NCBI GenBank assembly: GCA_947455705.1
Contig: CANGPO010000012.1
Coordinates: 1-45,579, forward strand
Direction: 5' to 3'
Origin: Actinomycetota bacterium
Lineage (GTDB): Bacteria; Actinomycetota; Actinomycetes; S36-B12; CAIYMF01
Length of the DNA: 45,579 nt
Shown: positions 32,884 through 42,422 of the stretch, piece after piece
Layout of the letters: each line of letters opens with the position of its first letter
How positions within the stretch are numbered: the first letter of the stretch is position 1
Position numbers and translations under genes: made by a program
The notes under the pieces: generated by a model
Database searches by the model: none
What the model was told of the DNA's origin: nothing
The model's input: only the letters and a program-made list of their open reading frames with translations

Positions 32884-33936
32884 ATGAACCCCGAGTCGAT
32901 AGCGTCCGTGCTTGTGAGTTCCGATGTGACGTTGAGCTGGCCCCGGGTAAGCCGGCGGCCGATCACCCTGTTCTTGCGTCGGGTTGCCATCGCCACAGCA
33001 TGCCTCTTAATCACTGCATTTCTGGTTTACATCGAGCGCGACGGCTACAACGACGCAAACGGTCATCCGATCACGATGATTGATGCGCTGTACTACGCAA
33101 CTGTCTCCCTATCGACCACTGGGTACGGCGATATCGCTCCGTACAGTGAGTCAGCTCGGCTTGTGAACATCTTTCTGATCACCCCACTACGTTTCATTTT
33201 CCTGATCACTCTGGTTAGCACGACGGTGGAGATCCTCACCGAGCGGACCCGTGATGAATGGCGCACCCGCCGCTGGAGGTCAACTGTGAACAACCACACC
33301 GTCATCATTGGCTACGGAGTGAAGGGGCGAAGCGCCGCACAAAGTCTCACGGGCGCCGGAGTGGACGCGAGCACCATCGTCGTTGTCGACCCGTCGGCCG
33401 CCGTGATCGAGCAAGCCAACGAGAGCGGACACTTGGGAGTCATTGGAGATGCTGGTCGCGAAGAGATCATGCGCGCCGCCTCCGTCGACAAGGCACGTCA
33501 GGTCATCGTTGCTCTCGATCGCGATGACGCATCGGTGCTCGCAGTATTGACGGCTCGACGGTTGGCTCCGCAGGCTCGCATCGTGGCCGCCGTCCGCGAG
33601 TCCACAAACAGCCCGTTACTTCGTCAGAGCGGAGCCGACGTTGTAGTGCTAACGGCCGAGTCCGCGGGGCATCTGATGGGTCTGTCACTCAATTCCCCGG
33701 CTGCAGGCGACTTCGTTGAGGATCTCCTCGAAACACGTGATGGTCTCACCATCGTCGAGAGAGCCGCCACGTCCGATGATGTCGGCGGCACCAGCCAGGA
33801 CCTGCTATCTCGAGGTGAGCTTCTCGTCGCCGTCGTACGTCGAGGAGTAACCCATCGCTTTGATAGCGGAACGATCTCCGCCATCGAACCTGGCGACACA
33901 CTTCTTGTCATCCATCAAGGTCGGGGGGCGCAGTAA
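32884..33936 (+). CDS. Two-helix potassium channel with RCK (TrkA-N) domain
   Basis: 350 residues. Helix 1 is FLRRVAIATACLLITAFLVYI; the pore loop gives the K+ selectivity filter in LSTTGYGDIAPYSE near residue 80; helix 2 is ITPLRFIFLITLVSTTVEIL. A cytosolic RCK domain follows (about 140-350), with VIIGYGVKGRSAAQSLTGAGV near 142 and an Asp for NAD or ligand binding in VVVDPSAAVIEQAN. TrkA-C-like residues close it. Such channels are gated by Ca2+, nucleotides or ligand. The stop TAA shares its last base with the ATG of the next gene (TAATG), implying coupling. Confidence 0.92.
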   Translation: MNPESIASVLVSSDVTLSWPRVSRRPITLFLRRVAIATACLLITAFLVYIERDGYNDANGHPITMIDALYYATVSLSTTGYGDIAPYSESARLVNIFLITPLRFIFLITLVSTTVEILTERTRDEWRTRRWRSTVNNHTVIIGYGVKGRSAAQSLTGAGVDASTIVVVDPSAAVIEQANESGHLGVIGDAGREEIMRAASVDKARQVIVALDRDDASVLAVLTARRLAPQARIVAAVRESTNSPLLRQSGADVVVLTAESAGHLMGLSLNSPAAGDFVEDLLETRDGLTIVERAATSDDVGGTSQDLLSRGELLVAVVRRGVTHRFDSGTISAIEPGDTLLVIHQGRGAQ

Positions 33937-34913
33937 TGCATGCCATCGCAATTACCGAGTTTGGCGCTCCGGAGGTTTTGGTCTGGACTGAAGTGCCCGA
34001 CCCGGTACCCGCATCCGATGAAGTCGTCATTCGCATCACCGCCAGCGCCGTGAATCGTGCGGATTTACTTCAGCGCCAAGGATTTTACGAGCCTCCCCCC
34101 GGTTCCTCGCCCTACCCTGGGCTCGAATGCAGTGGTGTCATCGCACAGGTTGGGTCTGACGTGACGGGTTGGACGATCGGTGACGAATGCTGCGCATTAC
34201 TTTCCGGTGGTGGCTATGCCGAGTTCGTCGCCGTACCCGCAGGTCAAGTTATGCCACTGCCACCTGGGACAGATGTTGTAACTGCTGCAGCACTTCCTGA
34301 GGTTGCCTGCACCGTTTGGTCGAATCTGATCGATACTGCACGACTCAGCAGTGGCGACACAGTTCTGATTCATGGCGGCGGTAGTGGAATCGGCACCTTT
34401 GCAATTCAGTTTGCTCGCGCGCGTGGAGCGCGCGTCGCGGTGACGGCGGGATCGGCAGAGAAACTAGAAGCATGCGCCGCCCTAGGCGCCGACATTCTGA
34501 TCAACTACCGCGAGCAGGATTTCGTCGAAGCCATCCGCGCTGCGACGGACGGCCGTGGTGCGGACGTGATTTTGGACAACATGGGTGCCGAATATCTCGC
34601 TCGCAATATTGCTGCATTAGCTACCAATGGACGAATAGCAGTGATCGGGCTGCAGGGTGGCGTCAAAGCAGAGTTAGACCTGGGCAAACTTATGGCAACC
34701 CGCGGATCTGTTGCCGCCACCTCACTGCGCGCGCGCCCAACAGCCGATAAGGCGCGCATATGCTCGGCCGTCATAGACAACGTGTGGCCATTGCTAGCAA
34801 CTGGTGCCATCAAGCCCATCATCGACCGAAGCATCCCGATGTCAGATGCAGCCGAAGCCCATCGAGTTGTGACGGCAAGTGATCATGTAGGCAAGGTGCT
34901 GTTACGCACCTGA
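33936..34913 (+). CDS. NAD(P)H quinone oxidoreductase (PIG3/QOR family)
   Basis: 325 residues. An MDR-type protein without catalytic zinc: NRADLLQRQGFYEPPPGSSPYPGLECSGVIA near 45, then LIHGGGSGIGTFAIQFARARGARVAVTAGS near 145, GADILINYREQDFVEA, GGRGADVILDNMGAEY-like DGRGADVILDNMGAEYLARNI, and the PIG3-type C-terminal helix IIDRSIPMSDAAEAHRVVTASDHVGKVLL. It reduces quinones or enones with NADPH in the cytosol. It is translationally coupled to the K+ channel gene and converges on the SET gene. Function by family only. Confidence 0.9.
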   Translation: MHAIAITEFGAPEVLVWTEVPDPVPASDEVVIRITASAVNRADLLQRQGFYEPPPGSSPYPGLECSGVIAQVGSDVTGWTIGDECCALLSGGGYAEFVAVPAGQVMPLPPGTDVVTAAALPEVACTVWSNLIDTARLSSGDTVLIHGGGSGIGTFAIQFARARGARVAVTAGSAEKLEACAALGADILINYREQDFVEAIRAATDGRGADVILDNMGAEYLARNIAALATNGRIAVIGLQGGVKAELDLGKLMATRGSVAATSLRARPTADKARICSAVIDNVWPLLATGAIKPIIDRSIPMSDAAEAHRVVTASDHVGKVLLRT

Positions 34914-34941: not shown

Positions 34942-35445
34942 TTACGAAGCGGGCAGTGCGGCAATTCGGCGGGTGAGGTACGGAGAGAACCATCCATTGT
35001 ACTTCTGCTGAAGCTCTGGTTTGGTCCAGTCGAGACCGGTCACGATGCCGCGACACGTCGGCTCACCGCACAGGCAGGTGAATTCGTCGTAGTCGCTTGA
35101 ATCGCAGGTGGCGTAGTCGAATGTGAGTTCTTCGCCCACCTCGATGTCGCGCATCGCGACCAGGACATTGGCACCGACCAAGCCACAGGACGGCTCACAT
35201 GAGTGGTTCAGGAAGTCGCCTGGTTCAGGGGTGTCGCCGGACACGAGGTACAGATCCTGATCAACCTGAATCGATCGACTCTGCCGATCGTGGCTGAAGG
35301 TTTCGAGAGTGTCATGGGTTACAACCCAGCCACCGAATCCAGCAACGGTTGTGCCTTCGGGAATCCGCTCGATCGCGAATGATCCCCAGCCCTTTGCGCC
35401 TACGGGGCGGGCTTCCGCACCCGGGAACAGCCAGTTGTAGTCCAC
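34942..35445 (-). CDS. SET-domain protein with post-SET zinc motif
   Basis: 167 residues from GTG at 35445, with an AAGGAGA site. The SET core runs from KGWGSFAIERIPEGTTVAGFGG (18-39) through FLNHSCEPSCGLVGANVLVAMRDI (78-101) to EELTFDYAT (105-113). NHSC (80-83) and the Tyr of FDY (111) are the usual S-adenosylmethionine and catalytic residues. CLCGEPTC (124-131) is a CxCx4C post-SET zinc cluster that would join Cys83. SET proteins methylate lysines; bacterial ones are rarer and their targets mostly unknown. It is small, so substrate choice must lie in the SET core itself. It is divergent from bpa. Confidence 0.88.
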   Translation of the reverse strand: MDYNWLFPGAEARPVGAKGWGSFAIERIPEGTTVAGFGGWVVTHDTLETFSHDRQSRSIQVDQDLYLVSGDTPEPGDFLNHSCEPSCGLVGANVLVAMRDIEVGEELTFDYATCDSSDYDEFTCLCGEPTCRGIVTGLDWTKPELQQKYNGWFSPYLTRRIAALPAS

Positions 35446-35700
35446 GTGCCGTCTCCTTGACGATCGCGTAGCCCGGTGCCCCAGCGGGTCCGGTGCCTCT
35501 CACCCCTCACGGGCTTACTAGTAGTTTTCGTTGGCCGATACGCACCGAGTGGTGCGCCGTGCATCGCATATTTCAGCACAGATTAGTGAACAACCTGTAT
35601 TCCTGAATCGTACAAAGGGCAAAACGCACGATAAGTACCCGTTCACAGTGCGCGTGGATCACTTCTGTCTGCGGGTTCAGGATCATGCTTTGATGGAGCC

Positions 35701-36273
35701 ATGACCAATCCCGTTGAGCCAGGCGCGATCACGCCTCCAGATGCACACGTCATCATCGTTGGACCAGATGGCCAACCCGTAGATGCCAGCGGTGTCACAC
35801 CTCATGGATCCGGTGATGTCGAGACATCGACGACGTCGATCACCGATCTCATCGAGCAACCGGCCAAGGTGATGCGGATCGGAAGCATGATCAAGCAGCT
35901 ACTTGAGGAAGTGAAGAGCGCACCACTTGATGAGGATGCGCGGGTTCGGCTACGTGAAATCCATCGTCGCTCTATAACCGAGTTAGAGGATGGCCTGGCC
36001 CCGGAGCTGGTGGACGAGCTCGAGCGCCTTTCGCTTCCATTCACCGAGGACCGCGTGCCAAGTGAGTCAGAGTTACGGATCGCGCAGGCACAACTCGTCG
36101 GTTGGCTTGAAGGTCTGTTCCATGGGATTCAAACCGCTCTATTCGCCCAGCAGATGATGGCTCAGTCACAGGTTGAACAATTGCGGCAACGCGCCATCGG
36201 TGGAGGCGACGGTGGCGTCGGGCCAGGGCAGACACCTGACGATCCCGGACGCAATGCCGGGCTATACCTCTAG
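35701..36273 (+). CDS. bpa: Bacterial proteasome activator Bpa (DUF2587)
   Basis: 190 residues. The four-helix region (TDLIEQPAKVMRIGSMIKQLLEEVKSAPLDEDARVRLREIHRRS, quoted in parts: EQPAKVMRIGSMIKQLLEEV; ELVDELERLSLPF; QAQLVGWLEGLFHGIQTALFAQQM) matches the Bpa/PafE core. The flexible C-terminus ends GLYL, close to the GQYL end that docks into the 20S proteasome alpha ring in mycobacteria. Bpa forms a ring that feeds unfolded proteins to the proteasome without ATP. Its presence implies a 20S proteasome elsewhere in the genome. A TTTGAT lies six bases before the ATG, an imperfect match to the leaderless pattern. Confidence 0.92.
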   Translation: MTNPVEPGAITPPDAHVIIVGPDGQPVDASGVTPHGSGDVETSTTSITDLIEQPAKVMRIGSMIKQLLEEVKSAPLDEDARVRLREIHRRSITELEDGLAPELVDELERLSLPFTEDRVPSESELRIAQAQLVGWLEGLFHGIQTALFAQQMMAQSQVEQLRQRAIGGGDGGVGPGQTPDDPGRNAGLYL

Positions 36274-36389: not shown

Positions 36390-37706
36390 GTGATCGATCT
36401 CAAACTGATTCGTGATGAACCCGAACGCGTACGCACTTCTCAGCGTTCCCGGGGTGAAGATCCGAGCATCGTTGATCGCGTGCTGGCCGCCGATGAGCGT
36501 CGTCGCGCGGCTGAACTCGCGTTCGGTACCTTGCGCAACGAGCAAAAGGAACTCGGTAAGCAGATCGGTCCACTACAGGGTCAACTCAAAAAAGCCAGTG
36601 ACGACGAGCGGGCCTCAATCCAGAGCCAACTCGATGGGTTGATGACTACCGCAACCGAACTATCGGATCGGGTTAAAGCCGCCGAAGATGAGCGCGCTGC
36701 CGCGGACGCAGATGCTGCCGCACTCGTGGCCCTGCTATCCAATGTGGTTGAAACCGCTGCCCCCATCGGCGGTGAAGACGATTTCGTCGTACTCGAGCAC
36801 GTCGGTACACCACGAGATTTCGCAGCCGAGGGAATCACCGTTCGCGATCACGTTGAGCTCGGTGAAATGCTGGGAGCCATCGACATCGAACGCGGAGCCA
36901 AGGTTTCCGGTTCACGCTTTTACTACCTCACCGGCGTGGGTGCGCTGCTGGAACTGGCGTTGGTTAACCACGCCATTGCGTTGGCCTGCGGTAACGGTTT
37001 CACGCCCGTGATCCCTCCTGCACTCGTCAAGCCCGCAGCGATGGAGGGCACCGGCTTCCTTGGCCAAGCAGCAGAGAATGTTTATCGTCTCGAGCAAGAC
37101 GACATGTATCTCGTGGGTACGGCTGAGGTTCCGCTTGCTGCGTATCACTCCGATGAGATCTTGGATGCAGAGTCTTTGCCGCGCCGTTACGTCGGGTACT
37201 CACCCTGTTTCCGTCGCGAAGCAGGCTCACATGGCAAGGACACCCGTGGCATCTTCCGTGTTCACTGGTTCGACAAGGTTGAGATGTTCTCGTACTGCAA
37301 TCCCGAGGATGCGACGAATGAGCATCAACGACTACTTGGCTGGGAGCGCCAATTCCTCGACTCCCTTGAAGTCCCCTACCGCGTGATCGACGTAGCCACG
37401 GGTGACCTCGGATCGTCCGCCGCGCGCAAGTTCGATATCGAGGCGTGGGTGCCGTCGCAGGAGCGCTATCGCGAAGTCACCTCAACATCTAACTGCACCG
37501 AGTTTCAAGCCCGACGACTTCGCGTTCGCATGCGCGATGCTGATGGCGTACGTCCGTTGGCAACCCTGAATGGAACGCTCGTTGCCATCACCCGCACCAT
37601 CGTCACCCTTTTGGAAAACCACCAGCAGGCCGATGGATCGGTACGCGTTCCCGTGGCGCTGAGGCCATACCTCGGCGGTCGAGAAACTCTCGATCCCATC
37701 GGTTAG
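36390..37706 (+). CDS. serS: Seryl-tRNA synthetase
   Basis: 438 residues from GTG at 36390. The N-terminal coiled-coil arm (about 30-105: [28 protein letters not shown], in part [16 protein letters not shown]) grips the long variable arm of tRNA-Ser. The class II core has motif 2 [21 protein letters not shown] near 275, [14 protein letters not shown] near 370, and motif 3 [19 protein letters not shown] near 393. It charges tRNA-Ser with serine in the cytosol. A tRNA-Ser(UGA) gene is also in this window at 19.6 kb. The leaderless promoter is clear. A HAD hydrolase follows 49 bases on. Confidence 0.97.
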
Positions 37707-38610: not shown

Positions 38611-38814
38611 GCGTCACTGAGTCACACCAGTCACATGCGTCCCACCTGTGACACTCCTGTACGTAGGCTCAAGCCGATCTTGAGGGGCCTGTGAAGCACG
38701 TCACAACCCCTGCGGAGCGTCGTCCCCATTCGGCCTGTCGCGTTGGACCTTCGGCCTATTTCATGGTTACGGTGAATCTGTTAGCCGCCACAGTACGGAC
38801 TTCGTACACGGTTA
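38611..38814. other. Intergenic region before the c-di-AMP riboswitch
   Basis: About 200 bases between the HAD stop and the riboswitch. It includes TCACATGCGTCCCACCTGTGA-like inverted half sites near 38631-38652 and should hold the promoter of the NlpC/P60 gene; I cannot place it firmly. No credible gene is seen. Confidence 0.4.
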
Positions 38815-38952
38815 ACACGCCTAATCGTCGGGCTCTCTCGCCTGACGAACCGGGGACCCACAGCACGTGGGGCGAATCACCGGGTCGAGCAATCGACTTG
38901 GAGTAGGGCACCTCTTCTGGCCCGAGCCCGTCAGCTAACCCGGTCGGCGACG
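38815..38952 (+). promoter_or_regulatory. c-di-AMP riboswitch (ydaO-yuaA type)
   Basis: The conserved ydaO blocks are visible in order: CGCCTAATC (38818), GAACCGGGGACCCACAG (38847), GTGGGGCGAATC (38867), and CCCGAGCCCGTCAGCTAACC (38921-38940), then CGGTCGGCG closing the P1 stem with CGCC. These match the class as I know it. In actinobacteria this class precedes genes for cell-wall hydrolases (Rpf, NlpC/P60) and usually turns them off when c-di-AMP binds. The ribosome site GAGAGGAG at 38951 lies immediately after the aptamer, so control of translation or early termination is possible. Confidence 0.9.
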
Positions 38953-38966
38953 AGAGGAGCCATCTG

Positions 38967-39575
38967 GTGCTGTCTATTTCGCGACGCCGTTTTTTGCCTG
39001 CGTCATTCCTGCTTGCGACTGCTCTCACTCTTGGAGTCGCAGCCACCCCCGCACAAGCCGCACAATCCACGACGACGTCGGTACGAGCTGCCGCGGCGTC
39101 ACCAACCACCTCCAGCGTGGCCAAAGCCACCTCTAGGCCGGTCAACAGGGCTGCGTTGGCCAAGGCCACCGCGGCGAAGGCTGCTGCAACCCAAGCCGCT
39201 CGAGTGGCGCGAATTCGATCCTCCATCGTCTCCATCGCGCTGTCCAAGGTTGGTTCGGCTTATGTGGCCGGTCATGCTGGCCCGCACTCCTTCGACTGCT
39301 CTGGCTTAGCCATGTACGTCTACGCCAAGGCCGCCGGCATCTCACTGCCCCACTACTCGCGGGCGCAGTACAGCATGACCACGCATATCTCAGCCAAGAG
39401 TCTGCGGGCAGGTGACCTCGTCTTCTTCTTCCGCAACGGTGCCCACCACGTGGCCATCTACATCGGCGGCGGAAAAATGGTTGGCGCTGCCAACCCGCGT
39501 CACGGTGTCCGCATCGACTCGGTGTTCGGACCCTGGTACGGATCACACTTCAGTGGAGCGGGCCGCCTGATCTAA
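38967..39575 (+). CDS. Secreted NlpC/P60 peptidoglycan endopeptidase (C40)
   Basis: About 202 residues from GTG at 38967, with GAGAGGAG upstream. A signal peptide (RRRFLPASFLLATALTLGVAATPAQA) is followed by an Ala/Lys/Thr-rich stretch to about 85. The C-terminal NlpC/P60 domain follows: ALSKVGSAYVAGHAGPHSFDCSGLAMYVYAKAAGISLPHYSRAQYS, in part HSFDCSGLAMYVY with catalytic Cys near 112. RAGDLVFFFRNGAHHVAIYIGGGKMVGAAN has the catalytic His near 160. It cuts peptide cross-links in the cell wall. The c-di-AMP riboswitch before it and the terminator after it make a one-gene unit. The lack of an extra coiled coil suggests a small soluble hydrolase. Confidence 0.93.
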   Translation: MLSISRRRFLPASFLLATALTLGVAATPAQAAQSTTTSVRAAAASPTTSSVAKATSRPVNRAALAKATAAKAAATQAARVARIRSSIVSIALSKVGSAYVAGHAGPHSFDCSGLAMYVYAKAAGISLPHYSRAQYSMTTHISAKSLRAGDLVFFFRNGAHHVAIYIGGGKMVGAANPRHGVRIDSVFGPWYGSHFSGAGRLI

Positions 39576-39644: not shown

Positions 39645-39655
39645 GGTTTATGGGA

Positions 39656-39672
39656 ATACCCCCTAGGGGTAT
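39656..39672. promoter_or_regulatory. CsoR operator overlapping the csoR -10 element
   Basis: ATACCCC-CTA-GGGGTAT is a perfect inverted repeat of the G/C-tract type bound by CsoR. Its last bases form the first part of TATGCT (39670-39675), a good -10. Bound CsoR would therefore block polymerase until Cu(I) releases it. Confidence 0.8.
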
Positions 39673-39700
39673 GCTGTTTGCAGAGTCGAGGGAGGAAACC

Positions 39701-39985
39701 ATGGAACACGGTTACAACGCAGACAAAGACAAGGTGTTAGCGCGCCTAAGCCGCATCGAGGGACAGGTTCGAGGAATCGGCCGAATGGTCGAGGACGACA
39801 CCTACTGCATCGACATCCTGACTCAGGTGTCAGCAGCGACCAGAGCCCTGGAAAACGTGGCACTGCTCCTGCTCGACGATCACCTTGATCATTGCGTTCG
39901 CAACGCAGCGGCAAGCGGAGGGCCTGAAGCAGACGAGAAGTTGCGTGAGGCCTCGCAGGCCATCGCGCGCCTCGTCCGCTCTTAA
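39701..39985 (+). CDS. csoR: CsoR copper-sensing repressor
   Basis: 94 residues. ATG at 39701 follows GAGGGAGGAAACC; the longer frame from 39650 would include the operator and is rejected. The CsoR/RcnR helical fold is clear: KVLARLSRIEGQVRGIGRMVEDDTYCIDILTQVSAATRAL, in part RLSRIEGQVRGIGRMV. The Cu(I) ligands Cys36, His61 and Cys65 fall at the same positions as in M. tuberculosis CsoR. It represses until copper binds. It heads the csoR-copZ-copA operon; copZ starts 30 bases later. Confidence 0.95.
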   Translation: MEHGYNADKDKVLARLSRIEGQVRGIGRMVEDDTYCIDILTQVSAATRALENVALLLLDDHLDHCVRNAAASGGPEADEKLREASQAIARLVRS

Positions 39986-40015
39986 CAACTACCAGCACAC
40001 AACGAGGAGACAGAG

Positions 40016-40225
40016 ATGAACACCACCACATGGTCCGTCGAAGGTATGACCTGTCAGCACTGCGTCAACGCGGTGACCGAGGAAGTCACTGCCATCCACG
40101 GAGTTACCGCAGTCGTCGTCGATCTTGAAGCCGGTCAGGTAACCGTGACCTCCGAGGACGCACTCACAGTTTCCGACGTGGCGGCAGCCATTGACGAAGC
40201 CGGTTACGTCCTGATCACAAGCTAG
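40016..40225 (+). CDS. copZ: CopZ-like copper chaperone (HMA domain)
   Basis: 69 residues, one heavy-metal-associated domain. The Cu(I) motif GMTCQHC is at residues 10-16, followed by VNAVTEEVTAIHGVTAVVVDLEAGQVTV and ending AAIDEAGYVL, the usual ferredoxin-like pattern. It carries Cu(I) in the cytosol to CopA or CsoR. The ribosome site is AACGAGGAGACAG. Genes before and after are csoR and copA on the same strand with short gaps. Confidence 0.95.
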   Translation: MNTTTWSVEGMTCQHCVNAVTEEVTAIHGVTAVVVDLEAGQVTVTSEDALTVSDVAAAIDEAGYVLITS

Positions 40226-40247
40226 TCACGCAACGAGGGGAGCAAAC

Positions 40248-42422
40248 ATGAGCACGTCAGAACTTACGTCGGTCGACCTAGCCGTCACCGGAATGACGTG
40301 TGCATCATGTGCCGCTCGAGTTGAGAAGAAGCTCAACAAGATTCCAGGGGTCGTGGCTACCGTCAATTACGCGACGGAGACTGCGCGAGTCCACGTGCCC
40401 ACCGGTGTTACTCGTGACGAGCTCGTAGCAGTCGTCGAAGCCACCGGCTACGGCGTCGCCGAACCTGATGAGGTCAGAGACCCCGATCCGGATCAACTTG
40501 AGCGCCGTTGGAAAATCTCGGCGATTCTGTCCATCCCCGTTCTAGCGATGGCGATGATCCCCGCGTTGCAGATCGACTGGTGGCAGTGGATCTCGTTCCT
40601 GCTCGCCTCGATCGTTGTGCTCTGGGGCGGTGCGCCATTCCATCGAGCTGCGTTCCTCAACGCACGTCACGGCATGACGACCATGGACACTCTGGTGTCG
40701 CTTGGCACGTTGGCTGCCTACCTCTGGTCAACCTTCGCAATCCTGTTCACAGCTGCTGGGGCCGTCGGCATGCACATGGACATGTCGTGGCTACCCAGCC
40801 ACAGCGTCACGTCGGCTGATCATCCCGATCTGTACTTTGAATCAGCTGCTCTCGTAACCACATTCCTGCTTATTGGGCGATGGTTGGAGAACAGGGCCAA
40901 GCAAAGCTCCGGGCAAGCACTTCGAGCACTACTTGATCTCGCTCCCAAGACGGCCACGATTCGGGACGGCGATAAGGAAACCCTGATTCCGGCCGCGCAC
41001 ATTAAGGTCGGCGACCTCGTCGTCGTTCGATCCGGCGAGCGAATCGCAGCTGATGGTGTCGTCGTAGAAGGTGCTTCAGCTGTCGATGCAAGCATGCTCA
41101 CCGGCGAGTCCGTGCCGATCGACGTCGCCGTCGGCGACAACGTTGCGGGTGGCACCGTCGTTCAGGATGGGCGACTCGTCATCACGGCCACGCGCGTTGG
41201 CGGTGACACGTCGTTGGCACACATCACCGCGCTGGTCACCTCAGCGCAGGCCGGAAAGGCGCAGATCCAGCGGCTTGCTGATCGAGTATCGACGGTGTTT
41301 GTACCGGTGGTTCTCGCTATCGCCGCGTTGACCTTGCTCGGATGGGGATTCACCTCTGGCTGGCAACAGGGATTCACCGCGGCCGTCGCCGTGTTGGTGA
41401 TCGCCTGTCCGTGTGCCCTGGGCCTAGCAACACCAACCGCCCTACTCGTGGGCACTGGACGCGGTGCGCAGCTGGGCGTTCTGGTGCGTGGGCCTGAGGT
41501 TCTTGAATCAACCCACACCGTCAACACCGTCGTCCTCGACAAGACCGGCACGCTCACCACAGGTGTGATGTCCGTCGTTGATGTGTGGGGTGATGACGAG
41601 GCGATTCGATTGGCTGGGGCACTTGAACATGCTTCGAGTCATCCCATCGCCCGTGCCATTGCCTCGTACGCAGCTAGCCGCGGCCCACTTCCGTCCGCCA
41701 TCGACGTTGAGTCGTCGCGCGGCGACGGGGTGAGTGGGCTCGTTGAGGGGCGTCACGTTCAGGCTGGTCGACCTGCATGGATCAACAGCGCGCAGGAATG
41801 GCCAAACGCGCTCAGCACGTGGCAGGCAGGCAACAACACGGTGATCGGAGTTGCCATCAACGGGCTGCCTCGTGCAATCTTCGTCGTCGCTGACGTGATC
41901 CGACCGACGACGGCCGCAGCTATTGATTCACTACGTTCACTCGGGATCGAACCCATCATGGTGACGGGTGACAACTCGGCCACGGCACATCTGATCGCTG
42001 AACAATTGGGAATTGTCACGGTGTTTGCCGATTCGCGACCCGAGGACAAGTTGGAGATCGTCCACTCGCTTCAACAACAAGGTCGCGTCGTTGCCGTCAT
42101 CGGCGACGGTGTCAACGATGCGGCTGCACTTGCCGCTGCCGACCTTGGCATCGCTATGGGCAACGGGACGGACGCTGCGATCGAGGCCGCCGACATCACA
42201 CTTCTGCGCGAAGATCTCACCAGCGCTGGAGATGCCGTACGGCTCGCGCGGGCGACACTGCGAACGATCAAAGAAAATCTCGCGTGGGCCTTCGGATACA
42301 ACATTGCAGCCATTCCGTTGGCAGCCGTCGGCCTCTTGACACCGCTGATCGCGGGCCTAGCGATGGCACTGTCGAGTGTGTGCGTCGTGGCAAATAGTCT
42401 GCGGCTCAAGCGATTTCGCTAG
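40248..42422 (+). CDS. copA: Copper-exporting P1B-type ATPase
   Basis: 724 residues. A single N-terminal HMA domain has GMTCASCAAR near 16-24. Eight helices are expected, with TGES (MLTGESVPID) near 283, the CPC ion site in IACPCALGLATPTA near 386, the phosphorylation motif VLDKTGTLTTG near 430, HP in SSHPIARAIA near 465 and GDGVNDAAALAAADLGIAMG near 619. WAFGYNIAAIPLAA and the MALSSVCVVANSLRL end give the P1B-1 Asn/Tyr/Met/Ser signature for Cu(I). It pumps Cu(I) out of the cytosol. Controlled with copZ by CsoR. Confidence 0.96.
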   Translation: MSTSELTSVDLAVTGMTCASCAARVEKKLNKIPGVVATVNYATETARVHVPTGVTRDELVAVVEATGYGVAEPDEVRDPDPDQLERRWKISAILSIPVLAMAMIPALQIDWWQWISFLLASIVVLWGGAPFHRAAFLNARHGMTTMDTLVSLGTLAAYLWSTFAILFTAAGAVGMHMDMSWLPSHSVTSADHPDLYFESAALVTTFLLIGRWLENRAKQSSGQALRALLDLAPKTATIRDGDKETLIPAAHIKVGDLVVVRSGERIAADGVVVEGASAVDASMLTGESVPIDVAVGDNVAGGTVVQDGRLVITATRVGGDTSLAHITALVTSAQAGKAQIQRLADRVSTVFVPVVLAIAALTLLGWGFTSGWQQGFTAAVAVLVIACPCALGLATPTALLVGTGRGAQLGVLVRGPEVLESTHTVNTVVLDKTGTLTTGVMSVVDVWGDDEAIRLAGALEHASSHPIARAIASYAASRGPLPSAIDVESSRGDGVSGLVEGRHVQAGRPAWINSAQEWPNALSTWQAGNNTVIGVAINGLPRAIFVVADVIRPTTAAAIDSLRSLGIEPIMVTGDNSATAHLIAEQLGIVTVFADSRPEDKLEIVHSLQQQGRVVAVIGDGVNDAAALAAADLGIAMGNGTDAAIEAADITLLREDLTSAGDAVRLARATLRTIKENLAWAFGYNIAAIPLAAVGLLTPLIAGLAMALSSVCVVANSLRLKRFR

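Follow-up and report, generated by a model that had tools for sequence, protein, structure and literature searches.

The window examined here, the whole 45,579-nucleotide stretch of an actinobacterial contig, contains on its minus strand a gene for a short SET-domain methyltransferase (34942–35445) that is divergent from bpa, the gene for the bacterial proteasome activator (35701–36273, plus strand). The locus raises the question of what such an enzyme would methylate in a bacterium, and whether its neighbor points to the substrate. Bacterial SET proteins in the papers surveyed are mostly effectors acting on host chromatin, and BurB is a metabolic enzyme; a short SET protein in lineages for which the present data give no sign of a host offers a clean case for a role of the SET domain in the bacterium itself. 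The reading we prefer, with a probability of roughly 55%, is that the gene encodes a free-standing, chromosomal class V (SET) SAM methyltransferase whose target is most likely a lysine of one of the cell's own conserved housekeeping proteins.

The SET gene and its predicted enzyme

The open reading frame starts with GTG, has an AGGAGA box 6 bases upstream, and encodes 167 amino acids; GTG also stands at the matching start codon in three relatives (loci L028, L007, and L037). SET is the one Pfam domain in the protein (PF00856, 46 bits against a cut-off of 22.4, E = 7.6e-12, profile positions 1–104 of 105), NCBIfam models match neither this protein nor Bpa, and the window's own genome, which is 97.7% complete, contains no second SET match. 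Comparison with L028, the nearest relative within the genome collection, gives 37 synonymous and 4 non-synonymous codon differences, with 39 of the 43 base differences in third codon positions. This excess of synonymous over non-synonymous differences shows that the open reading frame is a genuine gene and that purifying selection acts on it.

The initial annotation had described a 167-residue SET protein with NHSC, FDY, and CxCx4C motifs and had judged it likely active. All three motifs are found, as N80-H81-S82-C83, F109-D110-Y111, and C124-L-C126-x4-C131, and they are mostly invariant in relatives. In an alignment of 30 rows drawn from two phyla (the window, 27 of 50 homologue loci, and two loci from order-level genomes), N80, H81, C83, D110, Y111, C124, C126, and C131 do not vary, while S82 and F109 are each replaced once, by Ala and Tyr, respectively. 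The cysteines characteristic of post-SET protein lysine methyltransferases, namely CxCx4C together with the Cys of NHxC, are thus present as C83, C124, C126, and C131 in all 30 rows. The presence of canonical SAM-binding and zinc residues suggests that the protein is intact and probably active.

An AlphaFold model built from the 30-row alignment has a mean pLDDT of 93.6 and a pTM of 0.86, and the SET fold is predicted with confidence. Among profile matches to solved structures, the Set1/MLL and ASH1/NSD groups rank first (MLL1, E = 9.6e-20; ASH1L, E = 5.1e-18), and the MLL1 profile alignments pair NHSC, DY, and the post-SET cysteines with those of the window protein. In the VIA structure alignment the best 50 rows have Z scores of 12.1–14.5 and identities of 21–29%, with ASH1L first (4ypu_A, Z = 14.5, rmsd 2.3, 133 residues aligned) and SETD2, NSD, and MLL also present. 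Most VIA matches end near residue 137, two of the best 50 reaching residue 167, and the aligned bacterial relatives have in common a C-terminal extension with the consensus VTGxDWxxPELQxKYxGxFSPYL. Part of the lysine channel appears non-canonical at R57–I59, because the HMMER alignment leaves the MLL1 strand bearing two aromatics, which we take to be lysine-channel residues, as an insertion opposite R57-S58-I59, and because every one of the 30 rows has R or H at position 57 and I or L at position 59. Aromatic residues at candidate lysine-channel sites are F37, which is F or W in relatives, and F109.

In the mechanism proposed here, SAM would be bound by the NHSC/GEE..FDY core, and a post-SET zinc held by C83, C124, C126, and C131 would close off the active site. 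Y111 would lie between the cofactor and the acceptor, the latter most likely being a lysine amine on a single conserved housekeeping protein made by the same cell. In eukaryotic SET enzymes a Phe at the F/Y-switch position goes with more than monomethylation, and F109 at this position may accordingly favor di- or trimethylation. Zinc binding, catalysis, the lysine acceptor, and the number of methyl groups added are all predictions for the window protein.

Distribution, gene order, and independence from the proteasome

At 55–97% identity, relatives of the SET protein occur in 32 of the 60 genomes drawn from the same genus, family, and order, a count that includes the genome of the window itself. 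Among the close loci are records titled Candidatus Nanopelagicales and others titled as unclassified actinobacteria. More distant relatives (46–55%) are found in Anaerolineae and Acidimicrobiales-type bacteria; one of them, at 55%, is L042 from the named strain Bellilinea caldifistulae. Of 396 genomes sampled evenly across the phylum, 30 have any SET match, one of which, the window's own genome aside, belongs to the same class. In the SET tree the sequences of the order group with one other actinobacterial row (L126) and then with more rows from actinobacteria, those from Chloroflexota falling outside; this tree is midpoint-rooted for drawing only, many of its deep forks are weak, and it carries no conclusion on transfer. 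Some species are represented both among the homologue-search loci and among the 60 order-level genomes; the two are not independent samples. No paper on this family was recognized by title or by the beginning of its abstract, and as far as literature searches reach the family is widely spread and uncharacterized. One homologue with 52% identity lies on an IMG/VR contig classed as viral (L168, 4842–5519), where it overlaps the next open reading frame, which is DUF488-like by eye.

The gene divergent from SET is securely assigned as bpa (PF10759, E = 2e-72; matching PDB chains carry the name bacterial proteasome activator, lowest E = 1.2e-58), and the divergent arrangement noted in the initial annotation is confirmed, with an intergenic stretch of 255 bp (35446–35700) that presumably contains the promoters of both genes. 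The C-terminal end of Bpa in the window is GLYL (36259–36270); the corresponding motif of mycobacterial Bpa is GQYL. Both SET and bpa are present in 16 of the 60 order-level genomes, SET without bpa in 16, bpa without SET in 19, and neither in 9, which gives an odds ratio of 0.47 and a Fisher p of 0.20 that serves as a guide only, since the genomes are related. Whole-genome searches detect no bpa in those 16 SET carriers, and nine SET carriers have no match to the 20S proteasome, eight of which, all of family f7, also lack bpa. The ninth is the window's own genome, which has bpa; its missing 20S is probably an assembly gap, because its two Pup_ligase-family matches sit at contig ends (C67:6–848 and C7:62–1333), and it is between these two genes that relatives such as G003 carry their 20S genes.

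Sister pairs in the SET tree differ in the presence of bpa at the locus: L013 has it and L076 does not (support 97/88), L021 has it and L075/L077 do not (100/99), and L027 has it and L068/L072 do not (94/83, just below the threshold of the tool). The genomes of these five bpa-less rows contain no bpa anywhere. Because three sister pairs differ in this way, bpa has been lost at least three times beside a retained SET gene, unless it was regained in place. The SET gene is independent of bpa and of the 20S proteasome, and bpa is not thought to be part of its function. Persistence of the SET–bpa adjacency across genomes, which had been put forward as a check on a functional link, holds within one order, where all 16 genomes with both genes have them as neighbors, but SET outlives bpa there and the adjacency is absent from 15 distant loci.

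As a separate observation, nine of the 11 f7 genomes (G022, G025, G029, G033, G037, G041, G049, G052, and G055) have two Pup_ligase-family matches of the PafA/Dop type and no 20S match, a pattern that reads as pupylation without a proteasome. Pupylation without a proteasome occurs in Corynebacterium.

Within the order, the lasting neighbor of SET is serS (36390–37706, plus strand), which encodes seryl-tRNA synthetase (TIGR00414, 430 bits) and is divergent from SET in all 32 SET-bearing genomes, either directly, at a distance of about 100–200 bases, or with bpa in between. Among the 33 genome-collection loci L007–L039, serS is near SET in 29 and 6–7 kb away in L020 and L038, with L019 and L030 undecided and L055 and L056, which have a partial SET gene, left out of the count. 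The other flank of the SET-containing block is a gene for a PIG3-type NAD(P)H quinone oxidoreductase (QOR; 33936–34913, plus strand; TIGR02824, 455.9 bits). In SET-lacking genomes bpa is closely followed by serS in 14 of 16 (the bpa loci of G035, G042, and G047 being left out); the arrangement is loose in G005, where serS starts roughly 1 kb past the end of bpa, and in G034 neither serS nor QOR is found at the bpa locus. QOR adjoins bpa on the other side in five SET-lacking genomes. Because the bpa–serS order is present in genomes that lack SET, SET lies inside an older QOR–bpa–serS block. Its nearness to bpa and serS can be explained by inherited position rather than function, and the proximity to bpa in particular looks accidental.

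Farther away the neighborhood is different. None of the 15 distant loci L040–L054 (Chloroflexota, Acidimicrobiales-type, and one unplaced) has bpa or serS in flanks of 1.2 to 8 kb, and clustering of the neighboring open reading frames reveals no family that the distant groups have in common beside SET, as expected if the enzyme works alone and its substrate is encoded elsewhere. Local associations do occur. One open reading frame family follows SET on the same strand in all five Bellilinea/Anaerolineaceae loci (L040–L043 and L049), its member in L040, the locus scanned, being a SAM hydroxide adenosyltransferase by Pfam; SURF1 lies near SET in Acidimicrobiales-type loci; and an aldehyde dehydrogenase gene lies downstream of SET in L054. 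A DMSP-type operon was considered for L054 and rejected: the aldehyde dehydrogenase fits, but the other four neighbors scanned (a peptidyl-arginine deiminase family protein, a Rossmann methyltransferase, a bactofilin, and one protein without a match) do not support it.

Candidate acceptors of the methyl group

The initial annotation had raised the possibility that the enzyme methylates a nucleoid protein or a component of the proteasome. Methylation of the proteasome or of Bpa itself is very improbable: it would account for the invariable adjacency of SET and bpa where both exist, but there is no positive association between the two genes, half of the SET carriers do without bpa, SET persists through the losses of bpa described above, and the bpa–serS pair is present without SET. 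In addition, at a threshold of 50% Lys the only Bpa positions that qualify are K56 and K65, and both are kept in the SET-carrying and the SET-lacking groups, in an exploratory comparison of 47 and 18 rows, some of which are copies of one genome. Setting the proteasome aside spares an experiment on the wrong target. Seryl-tRNA synthetase is a more constant companion within the order, yet as a substrate it too is highly unlikely, since serS is missing near SET in the distant loci and displaced in two of the closer ones, gene order in the region is conserved anyway, and no lysine of the synthetase is clearly specific to SET carriers; an exploratory comparison of 29 SET-carrying rows (window included) with 17 SET-lacking rows, restricted to positions where 80% or more of the SET carriers have Lys, gives its widest difference at K283 (0.93 versus 0.76). 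A nucleoid protein such as HU has a precedent in archaea, where Go1-SET of Methanosarcina mazei is reported to methylate the DNA-binding protein MC1-alpha (PMC3980110). Such a target is nonetheless improbable here; the nine window proteins scanned include none of the nucleoid. The neighbors of SET in that scan are MoeA, an ion channel/TrkA protein, QOR, Bpa, SerS, HAD, NlpC/P60, and a CsoR-like protein.

A different kind of acceptor is suggested by BurB, a 172-residue SET protein of Burkholderia thailandensis that is reported to methylate free methionine, with the main chain of M132 contacting the methionine and the side chain of R133 contacting the ribose (PMC12542666). The window protein would then be a small-molecule enzyme, transferring the methyl group to the sulfur of methionine or a related metabolite through proximity and desolvation. 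BurB (9l4t/9l4v) matches it in sequence (E = 4.9e-9) and by profile (E = 5.5e-15), and Foldseek places 9l4v at rank 22 (E = 1.2e-8, 158 columns), albeit at an rmsd of 8.8; BurB is not among the best 50 VIA rows, which is no evidence against the likeness. Both are compact single-domain bacterial SET proteins of comparable length with equal spacing from DY through CxCG to CR and TG, and the SAM hydroxide adenosyltransferase that follows SET in the Bellilinea-type loci hints at SAM metabolism. Because a methionine S-methyltransferase also matches with the same post-SET spacing, the SET fold does not fix the acceptor. However, BurB, compared here through one fragment, has L92-H93-S94-C95 and M122-D-Y124 against a family in which N80 is present in 30 of 30 rows and F109 in 29 of 30, and ahead of the post-SET cysteines its VLMR stands in place of the SDYD of the window protein. 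The nine window proteins scanned include no decarboxylase, aminotransferase, or aldehyde dehydrogenase, nor are the genes of an S-methylmethionine pathway represented. A metabolite as acceptor is therefore considered unlikely, although it is the chief alternative to a protein lysine.

Two further sequences bear a resemblance to BurB or its context. The L140 homologue, for which BurB ranks first among PDB matches, retains the Asn of NHS. On a plasmid of Paraburkholderia phenoliruptrix (L211, 5872–7416), a SET-like stretch lies within a gene annotated as a HAD-IA hydrolase, adjoins aminotransferase and DMT transporter genes, and has Arg in place of the NHS Asn. BurB and L211 are two cases without the Asn, too few for a rule. 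A SET homologue on a Streptomyces plasmid was considered as a reference methionine S-methyltransferase and dropped, its record being without annotation; a literature search for SET-domain methionine S-methyltransferases in Streptomyces found no paper.

Methylation of a lysine in the cell's own protein agrees best with the resemblance to the Set1/MLL and ASH1/NSD/SETD2 lysine methyltransferases of eukaryotes, the kind of enzyme that acts on histones there; these are like the window protein in fold, NHSC, (F/Y)DY, and CxCx4C. They differ from it in that the window protein has no accessory domains, has a C-terminal extension of its own, and departs from them in part of the lysine channel. Go1-SET is a parallel as a prokaryotic SET protein acting on a protein of its own cell, albeit in another domain of life. 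The chlamydial NUE, in contrast, is described in the same source as a secreted bacterial SET effector acting in the host (PMC3980110). Effectors of this type share the bacterial SET domain; the window gene instead has housekeeping genes as neighbors, and the nine window proteins scanned include none for secretion. The broader proposal, that a widely spread bacterial family carries out native SET lysine methylation of one conserved housekeeping protein and is not directed at a host, is put forward tentatively. If it is correct, such methylation would have been kept even in genomes of 1.3–1.8 Mb in which no proteasome is detected.

Other features of the window

Downstream of serS, two further features of the window may be recorded in their own right. 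Positions 39650–42422 contain a gene for a CsoR/RicR-like repressor, which scores below the cut-off of the RicR model, followed by an open reading frame that by eye resembles heavy-metal P-type ATPases. A c-di-AMP (ydaO/yuaA) riboswitch is found at 38808–38964 on the plus strand (77.4 bits), directly 5′ of the NlpC/P60 open reading frame that begins at 38967.
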